Source: Pseudomonadota bacterium (lineage in GTDB: Bacteria; Myxococcota_A; UBA796; GCA-2862545). From it: 63,178 nt of DNA. Position 1 is the first letter of the stretch; the number at the start of each line of letters is the position of its first letter. The notes beneath the pieces were generated by a model that saw only the letters and a list, made by a program, of their open reading frames with translations, ran no database searches and was not told the origin of the DNA. This document shows, piece after piece, positions 3-53,251 of the stretch. Location: contig JAGSGY010000026.1 of NCBI GenBank assembly GCA_023954855.1, forward strand, positions 1 to 63,178, read 5' to 3'. A program made the position numbers and the translations under genes.

Positions 3-1427
3 ACCCGGTACCAGAGCCCCCTTGTCGCTCGGTATGCCAGTCCAGAGATGTCTCACGCCTTCTCGGACGAGAAGAAGTTCCGCACCTGGCGCCGCCTCTG
101 GCTCGCCCTGGCGACGGCGGAGCAGGAGCTGGGACTCGAGATTCGCGATGACCAGCTCGCTGAGCTTCGCGCGCACCTCGACGACATCGACTACGACGTG
201 GCCGCCGCCTACGAGAAGGAGCTGCGTCACGATGTAATGGCGCACGTGCACGCCCTCGGCGACGTGGCTCCGAACGCCCGTCCCATCGTGCATCTGGGCG
301 CGACGAGCTGCTACGTCGGCGACAACACCGACCTGATCGTGCTGCGGACGGCGTTGGACCTGACCCTGCCGAAGATCGCGACCACCATCGCCCGGCTCTC
401 CGACTTCGCTCGCAAGTACGCAGACCTGCCGACCCTGGGGTTCACGCACTTCCAACCGGCGCAGCTCACCACGGTCGGCAAGCGCGCCACGCTCTGGATC
501 CAGGACCTGGTCATGGACCTGCGCAACCTGACCCGAGCGCGTGATGACCTGCGCTTTCGCGGCGTGAAGGGCACGACCGGCACGCAGGCCAGCTACCTGA
601 CGCTCTTCGACGGCGACGATGCCAAGGTCGAGGCGCTCGACACGAAGGTCGCGACGGCGATGGGCTTCGAGTCCTCGTACGCCGTGACCGGCCAGACCTA
701 CACCCGCAAGGTCGACCACGACGTGCTCTGCGCCCTTGGGTCCTTCGCGGCGTCCGCGCACAAAATTGCGACCGACATCCGGCTGCTCGCGCACCTCAAG
801 GAAGTCGAGGAGCCCTTTGGCAAGAAGCAGATCGGCTCGTCGGCGATGGCCTACAAGCGCAACCCCATGCGTTCGGAGCGCGTGTGTGCGCTCGCTCGTC
901 ACGTGATCACGCTGCAGCTCGACACGGCGCAGACCGTGGCCGTGCAGTGGATGGAGCGCACGCTCGATGACTCCGCCAACCGTCGTCTCTCGCTGCCCGA
1001 GGCCTTCTTGGCCGTCGACGGCATCCTCGAGACGCTGATGAACGTGGCGGGAGGCTTGGTCGTCTACCCGGCTGTCATCGGCCGCCGCGTCGAGAGCGAG
1101 CTGCCGTTCATGGCGACCGAGAACCTGATCATGGCGATGGTTCGTCGCGGTGCCGACCGCCAAGAGGTCCACGAGGCCATTCGCACCCACGCCATGGATG
1201 CCAGCTACCGCGTCAAGGCCGAGGGCAAGGACAACGACCTACTCGACCGCGTGCGTGCCGACGCCTTCTTCTCGCCCATCCACGGCGACATCGACGCGCT
1301 GCTCGACCCCTCCACCTTCGTCGGACGGGCTCCGGCCCAGACCTACGCCTTCCTCGATGGTGAGGTCCGTGAGGCGCTCGAACCCTGGAAGGACCAGCTC
1401 TCGGGCGGTTCGGAGCTTCGAGTCTGA
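3..1427 (+). CDS. purB: Adenylosuccinate lyase, eukaryote-like type (5' partial)
   Basis: This lyase cleaves adenylosuccinate to AMP and SAICAR to AICAR in cytosolic purine synthesis. The frame is open from base 3, upstream of the ATG at 48, and those codons read [11 protein letters not shown], which matches the N-terminus of the animal enzyme as I remember it. The true start is therefore outside the window. The fumarase/aspartase superfamily signature [16 protein letters not shown] is present, as are [29 protein letters not shown] and [10 protein letters not shown]. These blocks resemble human-type ADSL more than the short bacterial PurB (the E. coli or Bacillus types). The stop overlaps the next ATG by one base (TGATG), so translation is probably coupled to pdxH. 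Identity is very sure; the eukaryote-like assignment is from memory. Confidence 0.95.
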
Positions 1428-48024: not shown

Positions 48025-49497
48025 ATGGACGAGAAGCTGGTGCTGACGGTCTTCCGAGAGGGGGTGCTCCAGACTCGCGGCTCGCAGATGCCGAAGACCT
48101 GGGAAGAAGTTGCGGCGTTTGTCGGAAAGCCGCTGCCGGACGCCGGCAAGCCCAAGACGGCGTATTCGCTGTGGTCCTTCGGCGTGTACCCAGGCAACGC
48201 CTACAAGGCCGCCGCCGCACAGAACATCCGAGCGCTCGTGCTCGACTACGACGCGGACCCCGAGATCAGTGCTGAGCGCATCGCTGAGCTCTGGGGCGAG
48301 GTGGCCTACGCGGCCCACACGACGTTCTCGAACTTCCGGCCCAAGCATGGGGCTCCGCCTCTTCCTCGGTGGCGAGTAATCATCCCGCTCGCGAGAGCAG
48401 TGTCGGTGGCCGAGTGCGGTGATCTGCTGCAGTGGGCACAGAACCGCTCGAAGACCGTCGGCGATGTCGACGCTGGACAGTGGTTCATCATGCCTGTCGA
48501 CCGGTCGGCGACGAGTGAGCGCACCGGGTACAAGAGCGCGGTGAACAGCGGATCCTGGCTCGATCCTGATCAGTGTCTGCGCGAGCTGGCGCGCGTGCGA
48601 GCCCAGGAGGGACGTGCCGAGCAGCTGTCTCGCCTTCGCGAGCGCGGGGCCATGCCGATTGCCGATCTGCTCGCCGGTGCGCTCAAGGGCATCGAGGCTC
48701 GCTCCTCGGGACTGGAGCCGCCCATTCCTGTGCCGTGGCCGACGCTTGCCCAGGCGCTCGGGGGAGGGCTTCGCCCCGGTATCCACTTGATCACCGGCGT
48801 TCCCGGCTCGGGGCGTACCCAGGTGGCGCTGGAGATCGCGATGCACGCGGCGCAATCGTACGTGCCCACGATGTTTGTAGGCCTGTCGGTGGGCCCACAG
48901 CAGCTGATCGCTCGAGCGCTAGCGATTGCCGCGGGCGTTCCGTGGTCGGTGCTGTGGAATGGTGCGGACCCCGAGACACTGAAGTTGGCGCGCGCGCAGG
49001 CGAACGAGCTCGCCGGCCTGCCGCTTTCGCTTCAGACGGCGACGCGCTCGGGCTGGGGAGCCGACTACATCTACGACTACGCCGAGACCTTTGCGGTAGC
49101 CCACGAGGCGCGTCCGTTCCTGTTCGTGCTCGACGGTGTGCAGCTGCTCGCCGCGCCGGGCAACACCCCCGCACTCGAACGGCGGCAGCGCGTGCTCCGT
49201 GCGATTGCCGAGGCCCGCGCCGCGGTTCAAAACCTCGGTGCGGTCGTGGTGATGGTGAGCCACTCCAGCCCGCAGCCAAGTCCAGGCATCCCTGGCGAGG
49301 TCGATGCGTCCGAGTGGCTGGGACGTGACGAGATGCTCCGCGAGCTCGAAGCGGCGGCCGATAGCGCACTGCCCCTCGTAAGTATTCGCGAGGGTGTGGC
49401 GCTGGGGCTGGCCAAGGTCAGAGCCGCGGACGGTCTGCGTCCCGACCGGGGATGGCTGAACCTGCATTCCCACGACGGTCGCTTCGTCGAGGGCTAG
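48025..49497 (+). CDS. Primase-like / RecA-type ATPase fusion (primase-helicase-like)
   Basis: The 490-residue protein has two parts. Residues about 65-165 match the outline of an archaeo-eukaryotic primase (AEP): LVLDYDAD (the DxD), AAHTTFSNFRP with PRWRVIIPLARAVS after it, then DVDAGQWFIMP. Residues about 230-480 are a DnaB/RecA-type ATPase with a Walker A loop GVPGSGRTQ in which Arg replaces Lys, LFVLDGVQLL as Walker B, and VVMVSHSS as a DnaB-like motif. Such fusions are usual in phages and plasmids, yet no phage gene lies nearby. Start ATG 48025 follows GGGAG. Activity is uncertain because of the Arg. Its stop shares CTAG with the convergent protease gene. Confidence 0.8.
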   Translation: MDEKLVLTVFREGVLQTRGSQMPKTWEEVAAFVGKPLPDAGKPKTAYSLWSFGVYPGNAYKAAAAQNIRALVLDYDADPEISAERIAELWGEVAYAAHTTFSNFRPKHGAPPLPRWRVIIPLARAVSVAECGDLLQWAQNRSKTVGDVDAGQWFIMPVDRSATSERTGYKSAVNSGSWLDPDQCLRELARVRAQEGRAEQLSRLRERGAMPIADLLAGALKGIEARSSGLEPPIPVPWPTLAQALGGGLRPGIHLITGVPGSGRTQVALEIAMHAAQSYVPTMFVGLSVGPQQLIARALAIAAGVPWSVLWNGADPETLKLARAQANELAGLPLSLQTATRSGWGADYIYDYAETFAVAHEARPFLFVLDGVQLLAAPGNTPALERRQRVLRAIAEARAAVQNLGAVVVMVSHSSPQPSPGIPGEVDASEWLGRDEMLRELEAAADSALPLVSIREGVALGLAKVRAADGLRPDRGWLNLHSHDGRFVEG

Positions 49498-50651
49498 CTC
49501 CGTCGGCGCCTGATGCCGAGCAGTCCGAGAAGTCCGAGGCTCCACCCAGCCACAGGACTCGGGCTCGTGGTGCAGCCGCAGCCGGTCTCGGCCACGGTCA
49601 CGTCGATGAACACTTCGGTGACCCCGGGCGGCACGTGGTCGTCAGCGACAGAGAGTACAAAGCTGTCGGGGCCGATGTAGCCCTTCTCGGCCTTGTAGAT
49701 GAGCTTGCGGTCGTTCTTGATCTGCACGGTGCCGTGGGCGGGTGCAGCTGCGAGTCCGGTCGTGAATGCCGTTGAATCACTGTCGGTGACCGTGAAGGTG
49801 GTCGAGTCACGGCCGTTCTTGTTGACGACGTCGAAGGGTTCGACCGTCACGACGGGCAGCGCATTGCACTCGGGAACGGCGGTCACGTCGCCGCCAGAGG
49901 TGCTCTGAATCCAGTCCAGGAACGCGTCGGGGCGCGTGTAGACACCGCCGTCTCCGCACCTCACCGTGCCCTCGTAGTGGGGGCGCGAGGTGACGCCGAT
50001 GAGCACGTAGCCGTACTCAGTCTGCAGGTAGAGCGGACCGCCGGAGTCGCCGTTGCACGAGTCGAAGCCGTTTCCGCCTGCGACGATCTCTGAGCCAACG
50101 GGCGCGTTCTGGTCGCAGCCGTAGGTCTCGGTGCAGTTCGCGTCGGTCACCGAGACGGTGACTTCCATAAGGGCCGAGTTCTGCCCGCCACCATCGCTCT
50201 GGGTGCTGCCGAAGCCCACGGCCTGCGCTGTGGCGCCGTTGACGGCGAGTCCGTCGGTGCAGTCTTGCGAGATGGGACGCGGCGTGAACGAAGAAGCGGA
50301 GGCAAGGCGAAGTACGGCAATGTCGTGGCCGAAGCGGCGGTAGTCCGGGTGCGGGATGGCCGAGGTGACGGCAATCCACTCGCCCTGTCCCTGGTCCCAC
50401 GAGTTGATCGAGCCGAGCACGACGTGCGACACGCCTCCGTCGAGACAATGCGCGGCGGTGAGCACGGTCTGCGGGCCGACCAAGGTGCCGGTGCAGCCGA
50501 CGTATCCGCCGATCACGATGCCCGCGGTGTCATCCCACTTGCCCGCCGGCGCGGCGTTGCCGCCCACAATCGGGGGCGCCACGAAGCCGGTGTCGAAGCC
50601 GGTGTCTTGCGCCACAGCGAGGGGCGCGAGTGCGAGAAGGAGTGCAAGCAT
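49494..50651 (-). CDS. Trypsin-like serine protease with MYXO-CTERM
   Basis: Signal peptide (MLALLLALAPLAVA), then QDTGFDTG, then a trypsin domain with IVGG activation site, TAAH68C, HDIAVLRL and CNGDSGGP, so all three catalytic residues are present. It has Cys pairs for disulfides. A cadherin/Ig-like beta domain follows (TTFTVTDSDSTAF, GYIGPDSFVLSVADDH). The C-terminus GCGCTTSPSPVAGW, then LGLLGLLG and RRRRS is a classic MYXO-CTERM that should be processed by a myxosortase and anchor the protein at the cell surface. It is third in a tandem paralogous set, 6 bases after the middle gene. Confidence 0.94.
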   Translation of the reverse strand: MLALLLALAPLAVAQDTGFDTGFVAPPIVGGNAAPAGKWDDTAGIVIGGYVGCTGTLVGPQTVLTAAHCLDGGVSHVVLGSINSWDQGQGEWIAVTSAIPHPDYRRFGHDIAVLRLASASSFTPRPISQDCTDGLAVNGATAQAVGFGSTQSDGGGQNSALMEVTVSVTDANCTETYGCDQNAPVGSEIVAGGNGFDSCNGDSGGPLYLQTEYGYVLIGVTSRPHYEGTVRCGDGGVYTRPDAFLDWIQSTSGGDVTAVPECNALPVVTVEPFDVVNKNGRDSTTFTVTDSDSTAFTTGLAAAPAHGTVQIKNDRKLIYKAEKGYIGPDSFVLSVADDHVPPGVTEVFIDVTVAETGCGCTTSPSPVAGWSLGLLGLLGIRRRRS

Positions 50652-50657
50652 GCGGCC

Positions 50658-51839
50658 CTACTCCCGGCGGCGGCGAAGGAGGACGAGACCCGCCAAGCCG
50701 AGAGACCACAGTCCCATGGGCTCCGCTCCCGTTGCGCAACCACAGGTGTTTCCGTCGACAACGACGAGAGGCACGACCACATCGGTGGCGTTGCCGTAAT
50801 CGTCGACCACCCTGAAGGTGAATTGGTCACGGCCCTCGTAGACGCCGTCTCCGACGTAGCGGAGCGTCGAGTCGTTCGGGATCTCGATCAGGCCGTTCGC
50901 GGGCGGAACAGGCAGCTCAAAGGTCCACGAGGTCGAGTCGGGGTCGGTGATCGTGAAGCTCGTCGTGGAGTTGCCCTTGTTTCCGACGGCGCCGAACGAC
51001 TCCACCTCGACGATGGGGGAGGCGTTGCACTGGGGCCGCAGCAGAGGGTCCGTGGTCTGCTGCTGAATCCAGTCGATGAAGGTGTCGGCGCGGGTGTAGA
51101 TGCCGTTGCCTCCGCAGGCGTAGCCGGTCTGCTGGGCTGCGTAGCTGGCCCGACTGACGACGCCGAGCAGCGTGTAGCCTTGCGGCGTCTGCAGGTAGAG
51201 CGGGCCGCCGGAGTCGCCAAAGCAGGAGTCGACGCCGTTTGCACCCGCCGTCATCTCGCCCAGGGGCGGCATGATCTCGGAGCAGTACCAGTCCTCGCTG
51301 CAGTCGTGGTCGGTGATGACCGTCGACGCTTCCTTGAGCTGCGAGTTCTGGCCGCCACCGTCAGCGCGGTCCGAGCCGAAGCCAACGATGTGTACGGCGG
51401 CGCCATCCTGAATCAGCGGGGTGCTGCAGTCGACGGCGAAGGCGCGGGGCTGCACGCCCTGGACCGGCTGCTGGAGCCGAATGACGGCGATGTCGAAGCC
51501 GCCGACCTGGTCGTTGCCGTAGCTCGGATGGTTCACCGTGCTCGACGCCGGGTACCAGTCGCCCTGGCTCTGATCGTAGTAGTTCGTGGTTCCGACCACG
51601 ACGCCCTGGACGCCGTTGTTCTCATTGCAGTGCGCGGCGGTCAGCACGGTCTGTGGGCCGATCAGCGTACCGGTGCACACCGAGTCCCGGGTGGAGACCA
51701 AGACGGTGTCCAGCCAGTTGCCGGGCTGCACGACGCTACCGCCGACGACCGGAGGGGGCGCGTAGCCAGTGTCCTCGAAGCCAGTGTCCTGGGCGGAGGC
51801 GGTCGCGAGGGTCAGGGCGAGAAACGCTGAAATAGTCAT
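50658..51839 (-). CDS. Trypsin-like serine protease with MYXO-CTERM
   Basis: This paralogue of the flanking genes begins at ATG 51839 (frame open to 51938 but without a signal peptide further up). The signal peptide is followed by QDTGFEDTGY and a trypsin domain with TAAH70C, FDIAVIRL and CFGDSGGP, so it should be active. An Ig/cadherin-like domain (TSFTITDPDSTSW, GRDQFTFRVVDDYG) and the tail CGCATGAEPMGLW, then LGLAGLVLL and RRRRE, a MYXO-CTERM, follow. It is 393 residues and lies between its two paralogues. Confidence 0.93.
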   Translation of the reverse strand: MTISAFLALTLATASAQDTGFEDTGYAPPPVVGGSVVQPGNWLDTVLVSTRDSVCTGTLIGPQTVLTAAHCNENNGVQGVVVGTTNYYDQSQGDWYPASSTVNHPSYGNDQVGGFDIAVIRLQQPVQGVQPRAFAVDCSTPLIQDGAAVHIVGFGSDRADGGGQNSQLKEASTVITDHDCSEDWYCSEIMPPLGEMTAGANGVDSCFGDSGGPLYLQTPQGYTLLGVVSRASYAAQQTGYACGGNGIYTRADTFIDWIQQQTTDPLLRPQCNASPIVEVESFGAVGNKGNSTTSFTITDPDSTSWTFELPVPPANGLIEIPNDSTLRYVGDGVYEGRDQFTFRVVDDYGNATDVVVPLVVVDGNTCGCATGAEPMGLWSLGLAGLVLLRRRRE

Positions 51840-51934
51840 AATTCTATCTCTCGGAGTTGGGTGGCACAGTACCTTCGCGATCTGCCACTGCCAACATACT
51901 CGGCACTTGCTCACATCCGCCTTACGATTGGCTC

Positions 51935-53104
51935 TCACACGGTATTGACGCGCCTCCGTCGACCCGCCAACAGCAGGGATCCAACGACTATAAACAGAGT
52001 CGATCCGCCGGTGTGTGTGCCGTTGTTACAACCGCATCCGAGAAAGCCCTTTCGGACCACATCGAGATCGACACCCACCACCGACTCATTGCCGTCGGGA
52101 TCTTGGACCTTCAGTGTGAAGCTGTCGGGGCCGGTGTAGTCGCGGTCCGCGCGAAAGCGGAGCTGGCTCGTCGTGAGGATGTCCACGAAGCCGTGCTCGG
52201 GCTGTTCGGGGAACAGGAAGGTGAACGGTCCATCGGGGTGGTCGCTGTCGGTCACGACGTAGGAGGTGCGGCCGCTTCCGCCCGATGCGACCGGGTCAAA
52301 GGGCTGGACTTCGATGATCGGGGTGCCGTCGCAGATGGGAAAGGCCAGCTCGTCTTGAGCAGCTTCTTCAATCCAGTTCTTGTAGGCATCGGCGCGGGTG
52401 AAGATGAACGAGTCGCCGCAGGCCTGGCTAGCCGAGGCCGCACTTCGCGATGCGATGCCCAGCAGCACGTCGCCGCTCGCTGTGGAGAGATAGGCGGGCG
52501 ATCCTTCGTCACCGGTACACGGACCCACGCCTTCGCCGCCCGCGAGAAACTCGGTGCCCTGCGGGGCTTCTTCGTCGCAGCCGTCCGAGGCATCGCACGC
52601 GAGGCTGGTGATGGCTCCGGTCACCGCGTTGAGGCGAGTGTTGGGGTCCACCTCGTCGACCCGAAGGGCACCAAAGCCGGCAAAGGTGAGGGGGGCATCG
52701 ACGGCGATAGCCTCGATGGCGCAGCCGTCGGCGATGGGGCGTGGCTCGAACTGGGAGGGTCGGGTCAGCTGCAGGACCGCGATGTCGAGGCCTTCGTTGA
52801 AGTACAGCGGGTGCATTTGGTAGGCGGCGACCGGAAGCAGCTCGCCTTGGCTCGACGCCCAGTCCTTGGAGCCGATAATCACGTGCGAGGCATCCGGGGC
52901 GCAGAGCGCGGTCGTGACGACCGTCTTTGGGCCTACCAAGGTGCCCGTGCACTTGTAGACGCCGCCTGAGAGAATGGCGACGGCGTCGTCGTAGCGGTCA
53001 GCACCCACCTGGGCCCCGCTGACGATCGGAGGCGCAACGGCGGTGTCGCCGGTGTCCTGTGCGCTTGCGGCAGGTGCGAGCGCGAGGAGCAGGGCCACAA
53101 TCAT
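51935..53104 (-). CDS. Trypsin-fold pseudoprotease with MYXO-CTERM
   Basis: ATG 53104 with GGAGG 7 bases before it begins a signal peptide, then QDTGDTAVAPP. The trypsin fold is kept (IVSG, KCTGTLVGP, disulfide Cys pairs), but the catalytic His is Leu67 (TTALC instead of TAAHC) and the Ser motif reads GDE200GSP instead of GDSGGP. The Asp (LDIAVLQL) is kept. It should therefore be inactive as a protease. The second domain (TSYVVTDSDHPDGPF, GPDSFTLKVQDPDG) and the tail (GCGCNN..., hydrophobic stretch, GRRRR) are like its paralogues. It is first in the tandem set and may bind substrate or regulate the other two. Confidence 0.9.
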   Translation of the reverse strand: MIVALLLALAPAASAQDTGDTAVAPPIVSGAQVGADRYDDAVAILSGGVYKCTGTLVGPKTVVTTALCAPDASHVIIGSKDWASSQGELLPVAAYQMHPLYFNEGLDIAVLQLTRPSQFEPRPIADGCAIEAIAVDAPLTFAGFGALRVDEVDPNTRLNAVTGAITSLACDASDGCDEEAPQGTEFLAGGEGVGPCTGDEGSPAYLSTASGDVLLGIASRSAASASQACGDSFIFTRADAYKNWIEEAAQDELAFPICDGTPIIEVQPFDPVASGGSGRTSYVVTDSDHPDGPFTFLFPEQPEHGFVDILTTSQLRFRADRDYTGPDSFTLKVQDPDGNESVVGVDLDVVRKGFLGCGCNNGTHTGGSTLFIVVGSLLLAGRRRRVNTV

Positions 53105-53251
53105 CAGAAGTCCTCCAGGGTGTGCCCCGCGATGGCTCGACCTCGGGGCACCGCACGGTACAGTGGGAGGGTAAGCGGTGCTTTCGCCGTCGTCGACGTT
53201 CGTCGAGATTTCGAGACAGAACGCCCTTGCCTTCGCCATTTCGGAGACCCC

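Follow-up and report, generated by a model that had tools for sequence, protein, structure and literature searches.

Three open reading frames homologous to trypsin, genes A, B and C, lie head to tail on the minus strand at positions 49494-53104 of the window, the whole 63,178-nucleotide stretch of DNA analysed here (Table 1). On re-reading the sequence, we found the coordinates, strand and residues given in an earlier note on this DNA to be correct throughout. All three products match the Pfam trypsin model PF00089 (E values of 5e-18 for A, 3e-32 for B and 2e-35 for C), begin with a signal peptide recognised by eye, and carry a Big_9 Ig domain, which in B scores 0.1 bit under the cut-off. The motifs of gene B (TAAHC, GFDIAV and DSCFGDSGGP) and of gene C (TAAHC, GHDIAV and DSCNGDSGGP) make up complete catalytic triads, from which we take both to be active-type enzymes. 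Both also carry Asp189, suggesting a trypsin-like pocket for Arg or Lys. A Pro-Pro pair stands immediately ahead of the I/V16-V17 N terminus of the trypsin domain in seven of the seven array members of the window and of the sister locus described below (L039), which makes activation by a trypsin-like cut after Arg or Lys unlikely.

Table 1. Features of the tandem trypsin array in window coordinates (residue numbers for the domains of gene A)
Feature	Position	Strand	Basis or remark
Gene A, judged a pseudoprotease, 389 aa	51935..53104	-	ORF and Pfam
Gene B, active-type trypsin paralogue, 393 aa	50658..51839	-	ORF, Pfam and TIGR03901
Gene C, active-type trypsin paralogue, 385 aa	49494..50651	-	ORF, Pfam and TIGR03901
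Trypsin domain of gene A, dead	res. 27-249		Pfam
Ig/Big_9 domain of gene A	res. about 258-351		Pfam
Codon CTC, Leu67 at the catalytic His57 position	52904..52906	-	Gln in the orthologue
Codon GAA, Glu200 at the catalytic Ser195 position	52505..52507	-	also Glu in the orthologue
TTGGCA-N17-TACTGT, promoter-like, in the A-B gap	51866..51894	-	same hexamers and same spacing in the sister species
GAACGTCGACGACGGCGAA, 19-base block upstream of A	53183..53201	-	conserved in the sister species

The N-terminal part of gene A consists of the signal peptide followed by a short pro-segment ending in PP, directly ahead of IVSG. As had been noted earlier, the sequence reads Leu for the catalytic His (TTALC, L67) and Glu for the catalytic Ser (GPCTGDEGSP, E200); Asp102 is still present as D107. 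A syntenic locus with four tandem trypsins was found in the sister genome G001 (Deltaproteobacteria bacterium isolate M1803, contig SBGP01000010.1), the sole other genome found in the genus, which is thus sampled by two genomes. The arrays of both species share a RecA-like ATPase, an M13 peptidase and a lipase-like gene as neighbours. The first gene of the G001 array is the orthologue of gene A (58% identity) and is also dead, with the motifs TAAQC and GPCVGDEGSP. In each of the two arrays, therefore, the dead gene is the first, and active copies again adjoin it in G001. Conservation of Leu67 and Glu200, proposed as a check in the earlier note, holds in part: Glu200 is again Glu, Leu67 is replaced by Gln, and the loss of His is conserved. 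The note had also held that orthologues with an intact triad would make gene A a strain-specific mutation; the single orthologue found is dead, and its presence in another species rules out both a strain-specific mutation and an assembly error. The fourth member of the sister array (L039:10073-11113) has a DTG/SGT-rich linker instead of an Ig domain, and its start and stop codons overlap those of its neighbours.

The dead form appears to be confined to this pair. Among 48 homologues aligned from a search of 58 related genomes, only gene A and its orthologue are dead, and the triad is intact in 46 of the 46 others. Together with the recurrence in a syntenic orthologue, this distribution argues against chance. 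No further dead trypsins were seen among the 13 and 19 PF00089 matches inspected in the two genomes; several PF00089 matches, mostly of the HtrA type, have variant Ser motifs such as GNSGG or GQSGSP and retain the Ser. A profile of the dead pair gave nothing above active homologues in 63 genomes of the order and 71 of the class. Likewise, a single-sequence scan of genome contigs gave no match, and the pair-profile scan returned the known orthologue only. A separate tandem trypsin pair with intact triads occurs in another genus of the family (L040:7253-10732, G002:C4), on an unrelated branch of the tree.

We scored the lesions at positions that are invariant in the active members of both clusters, five in all, with chymotrypsin numbering set by motif anchors rather than by a solved structure. 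Both dead copies share D189G, S195E, G197S, L199A, the change of IVGG to IVSG and the loss of His57. In addition, G226 is altered in both, to Phe or Ser, and position 190 is Pro in both (Ser, Ala or Thr in the five active members). As read from these positions, the S1 pocket is altered along with catalysis in both dead copies. The array-wide cysteines, Asp194, Gly193 and the PP-IV N terminus are retained. Such retention, together with Asp102 and a Glu195 that is invariant in the pair, could be taken to mean that gene A hydrolyses by an unusual mechanism, e.g. via Glu195 or Asp102. We regard this as scarcely credible, because position 57 offers no general base (Leu/Gln), position 195 offers no nucleophile, and the S1 pocket has changed; to our knowledge, no S1 enzyme works via Glu195 or Asp102.

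The claim that the three proteins share one architecture stood for the trypsin and Ig domains, which all three have, and only partly for the sorting tail. The MYXO-CTERM model TIGR03901 scores above its cut-off in B and C and finds no match in A. By eye, all three tails, that of A included, show GCGC, a hydrophobic stretch and RRRR, with TCGC instead of GCGC in B; the tail of the orthologue of A scores 20.5 bits against the TIGR03901 cut-off of 20. The genome encodes an MrtX-like protease scoring 121 bits against a curated cut-off of 180, and MrtX does surface sorting in Myxococcus xanthus (PMC11980579). MYXO-CTERM sorting in this genome is thus plausible, and we infer a surface location for A, B and C.

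The seven tandem members group together in the tree (clade support 100/99), next to an active paralogue that both species carry in single copy (G000:C159, G001:C32). The stem branch leading to the dead pair (support 100/100) is 1.83 changes per column long; the corresponding stems measure 0.22 (C pair) and 0.35 (B group). Since the species split, divergence has been 0.70 in the dead pair and 0.53 in the C pair. With the Nei-Gojobori method, we obtained dN/dS of 0.33-0.34 for gene A (bootstrap 0.25-0.45), 0.45 for gene C (bootstrap 0.35-0.58) and 0.64 for gene B (bootstrap 0.50-0.83), the last from copies that are not a strict one-to-one pair; all values are rough, because dS is near 1 and hence near saturation. 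The dN/dS of gene A is not above that of the active copies, which argues that the gene is not decaying. On these sequence comparisons, the history of gene A is one of a fast shift followed by constraint. The lost catalytic residues, the long stem branch and, in this species, a tail without a MYXO-CTERM match would suit a functionless duplicate in decay. However, the reading frame, the cysteines, the dead active-site motif and the Ig domain are retained in two species, and the upper bound of dN/dS is only 0.45, so that this explanation is largely refuted and in our judgement very unlikely.

An AlphaFold2 model of gene A built with seven homologues has a mean pLDDT of 75.8, with values mostly of 70-94 in the trypsin domain apart from some weaker loops, 86-94 in the Ig domain, and low values in the signal and pro-segment and in the tail. 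The predicted trypsin domain aligns with S1A proteases with a Z of about 27 over 204-223 residues (VIA-align), and the top Foldseek matches of the model are VesB (4lk4) and VesC (6bqm) of V. cholerae, each across both domains, although the two domains are arranged differently (rmsd 13). By sequence, too, VesC and VesB rank among the best PDB matches of A. The prediction thus bears out the earlier statement that the trypsin fold is kept. The PF00089 score of 66 bits (cut-off 20.6) places A in the S1A trypsin-fold family, while the residues at His57-Asp102-Ser195, which are Leu/Asp/Glu in A and Gln/Asp/Glu in the orthologue, set it apart from active S1 peptidases. Conserved loss of catalysis, the fold and purifying selection, seen in two species, are the marks of an S1A pseudoprotease, and from the sequence evidence we judge gene A to be a genus-specific one. 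A syntenic dead orthologue, purifying selection no weaker than that on the active copies and a predicted retention of the fold also uphold the proposal of a retained protease/pseudoprotease set as opposed to a strain mutation.

The 70-80 and autolysis loops form exosites in S1 proteases. In the dead pair, these loops are 82% identical (23/28), compared with 52% (15/29) in the C pair, and are more conserved than the rest of A; the comparison is post hoc, with p of about 0.02, uncorrected, for loops picked after inspection and judged from sequence. Conserved surface loops near the cleft, on a fold and a predicted anchor like those of B and C, would also be expected of a decoy that binds protease inhibitors or the defence molecules of prey and so keeps them from blocking B and C. 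However, canonical inhibitors of B and C should dock poorly on copies without Asp189, Ser190 and Gly226, and the loss of these residues disfavours any simple use of a trypsin-like S1 pocket as a decoy or for holding substrates, two of the roles that the earlier note had suggested. We therefore consider a decoy role improbable.

The description of gene A as the first-transcribed copy of one operon is unproven, because a promoter-like block lies in the roughly 95 bases between A and B and is conserved in both species. TTGGCA-N17-TACTGT has one exact copy in the window; about one chance match is expected at two mismatches, so the evidence for the block lies in its cross-species conservation. It may be a separate promoter for B and C, which may then form a transcription unit separate from A. 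The block GAACGTCGACGACGGCGAA upstream of A lies in the gap to a divergent gene, which by eye resembles a DNA glycosylase, and is a possible regulatory element shared with that gene. In the G001 array (L039:8913-12243, G001:C18), identity between Ig domains is 67% for B against C and only 34% for C against its own orthologue. This sharing suggests that a domain swap or gene conversion has taken place within the array and has bypassed A.

That A and B each have a conserved upstream element of their own, and that A stands outside the Ig homogenisation in G001, would also be expected if A were a stand-alone surface binder (an adhesin, or a ligand or metal binder) on a trypsin fold, decoupled from B and C and next to them only as a relic of duplication. 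The dismantled S1 pocket (D189G, S190P, G226F/S) and the long stem branch, which implies a large functional shift, point the same way, and there is a precedent in the dead protease domain of MamO, which binds transition metals (PMC4794232). On the other hand, nothing points to a particular ligand, and the first place of A in each of the two arrays fits a linked function, although plain inheritance could also account for it. We hold such a decoupled binder to be a real possibility, if a somewhat doubtful one, and the chief competitor of the partner model below, not far behind it.

The most likely reading, which we favour tentatively, is that A works without catalysis of its own as a partner of B and C, the active paralogues anchored beside it. 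This reading is favoured by the loop conservation and by the surface location predicted for A as for the active trypsins next to it. A VesB-like surface protease would have been duplicated in tandem in the ancestor of the genus to give rise to gene A, which would have shed both catalysis and the S1 pocket during a single rapid phase and would since have been held by selection. The protein would be exported and anchored on the cell surface through its MYXO-CTERM-type tail beside the active trypsins B and C. Lacking catalysis, it may bind B and C or their substrates through its surface loops and Ig domain, and such binding would steer, scaffold or moderate their proteolysis. The possible separate transcription of B and C and the Ig homogenisation without A weaken this link, the exclusion of A fitting functional separation as well as partnership, and A is known from only two species. 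The stronger proposal, a bacterial cell-surface protease/pseudoprotease module whose active VesB-like trypsins depend obligatorily on a co-anchored dead S1A paralogue as non-catalytic cofactor, and which arose independently of animal serine protease homologues (SPHs) and of MamO, seems to us rather unlikely.

A selectively maintained dead trypsin beside active surface paralogues would offer a compact system for the role of such a protein in a bacterium, and the array would be an independent parallel to the animal SPHs; the wider impact is modest until an interaction or a phenotype is shown for A. Pseudoproteases as such are already known, and the surface-anchored tandem version is new. A 2008 survey called 2 of 247 prokaryotic S1 proteins inactive (PMC2605481). 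In the literature searched, no VesB-type array of surface trypsins that includes a dead one is described, which does not prove absence, and no relevant precedent for pseudoproteases in Myxococcota was found.

VesB, whose structure matches the model of A best across the two domains, and likewise VesA and VesC of V. cholerae share with A the signal peptide, the S1A trypsin domain, the C-terminal Ig-type domain and a sorting tail, the last being putative in A. Unlike A, which lacks the triad and the S1 pocket, VesB is active, and its GlyGly-CTERM is cut by rhombosortase rather than being a MYXO-CTERM. Measured against VesB, a surface protease of trypsin, Ig fold and GlyGly-CTERM (PMC11389362), A has the architecture without the catalytic residues, and B and C keep the triad. 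Among vertebrate S1A pseudoproteases, HGF, protein Z and azurocidin have lost both His57 and Ser195 and retain the fold, and HGF has Gln at position 57, as does the orthologue of A; they differ from A in their unrelated lineage and their other partner domains. MamO of Magnetospirillum, which promotes MamE proteolysis non-catalytically (PMC4794232), is, like A, a bacterial trypsin-fold pseudoprotease from a duplicated pair. However, it belongs to the S1C/HtrA branch and is a metal-binding magnetosome membrane protein with a TauE domain rather than a surface protein of the S1A/Ig/MYXO-CTERM type. Insect SPHs serve as protease cofactors (PMC6901238), and the clip-domain forms are, like A, secreted S1A pseudoproteases beside active S1A proteases; unlike the bacterial A, they have a clip domain, a cascade context and proteolytic activation. 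Pfam found only the Trypsin and Big_9 domains in A, which is thus not a clip-domain SPH, but by analogy it may work in a similar mode.
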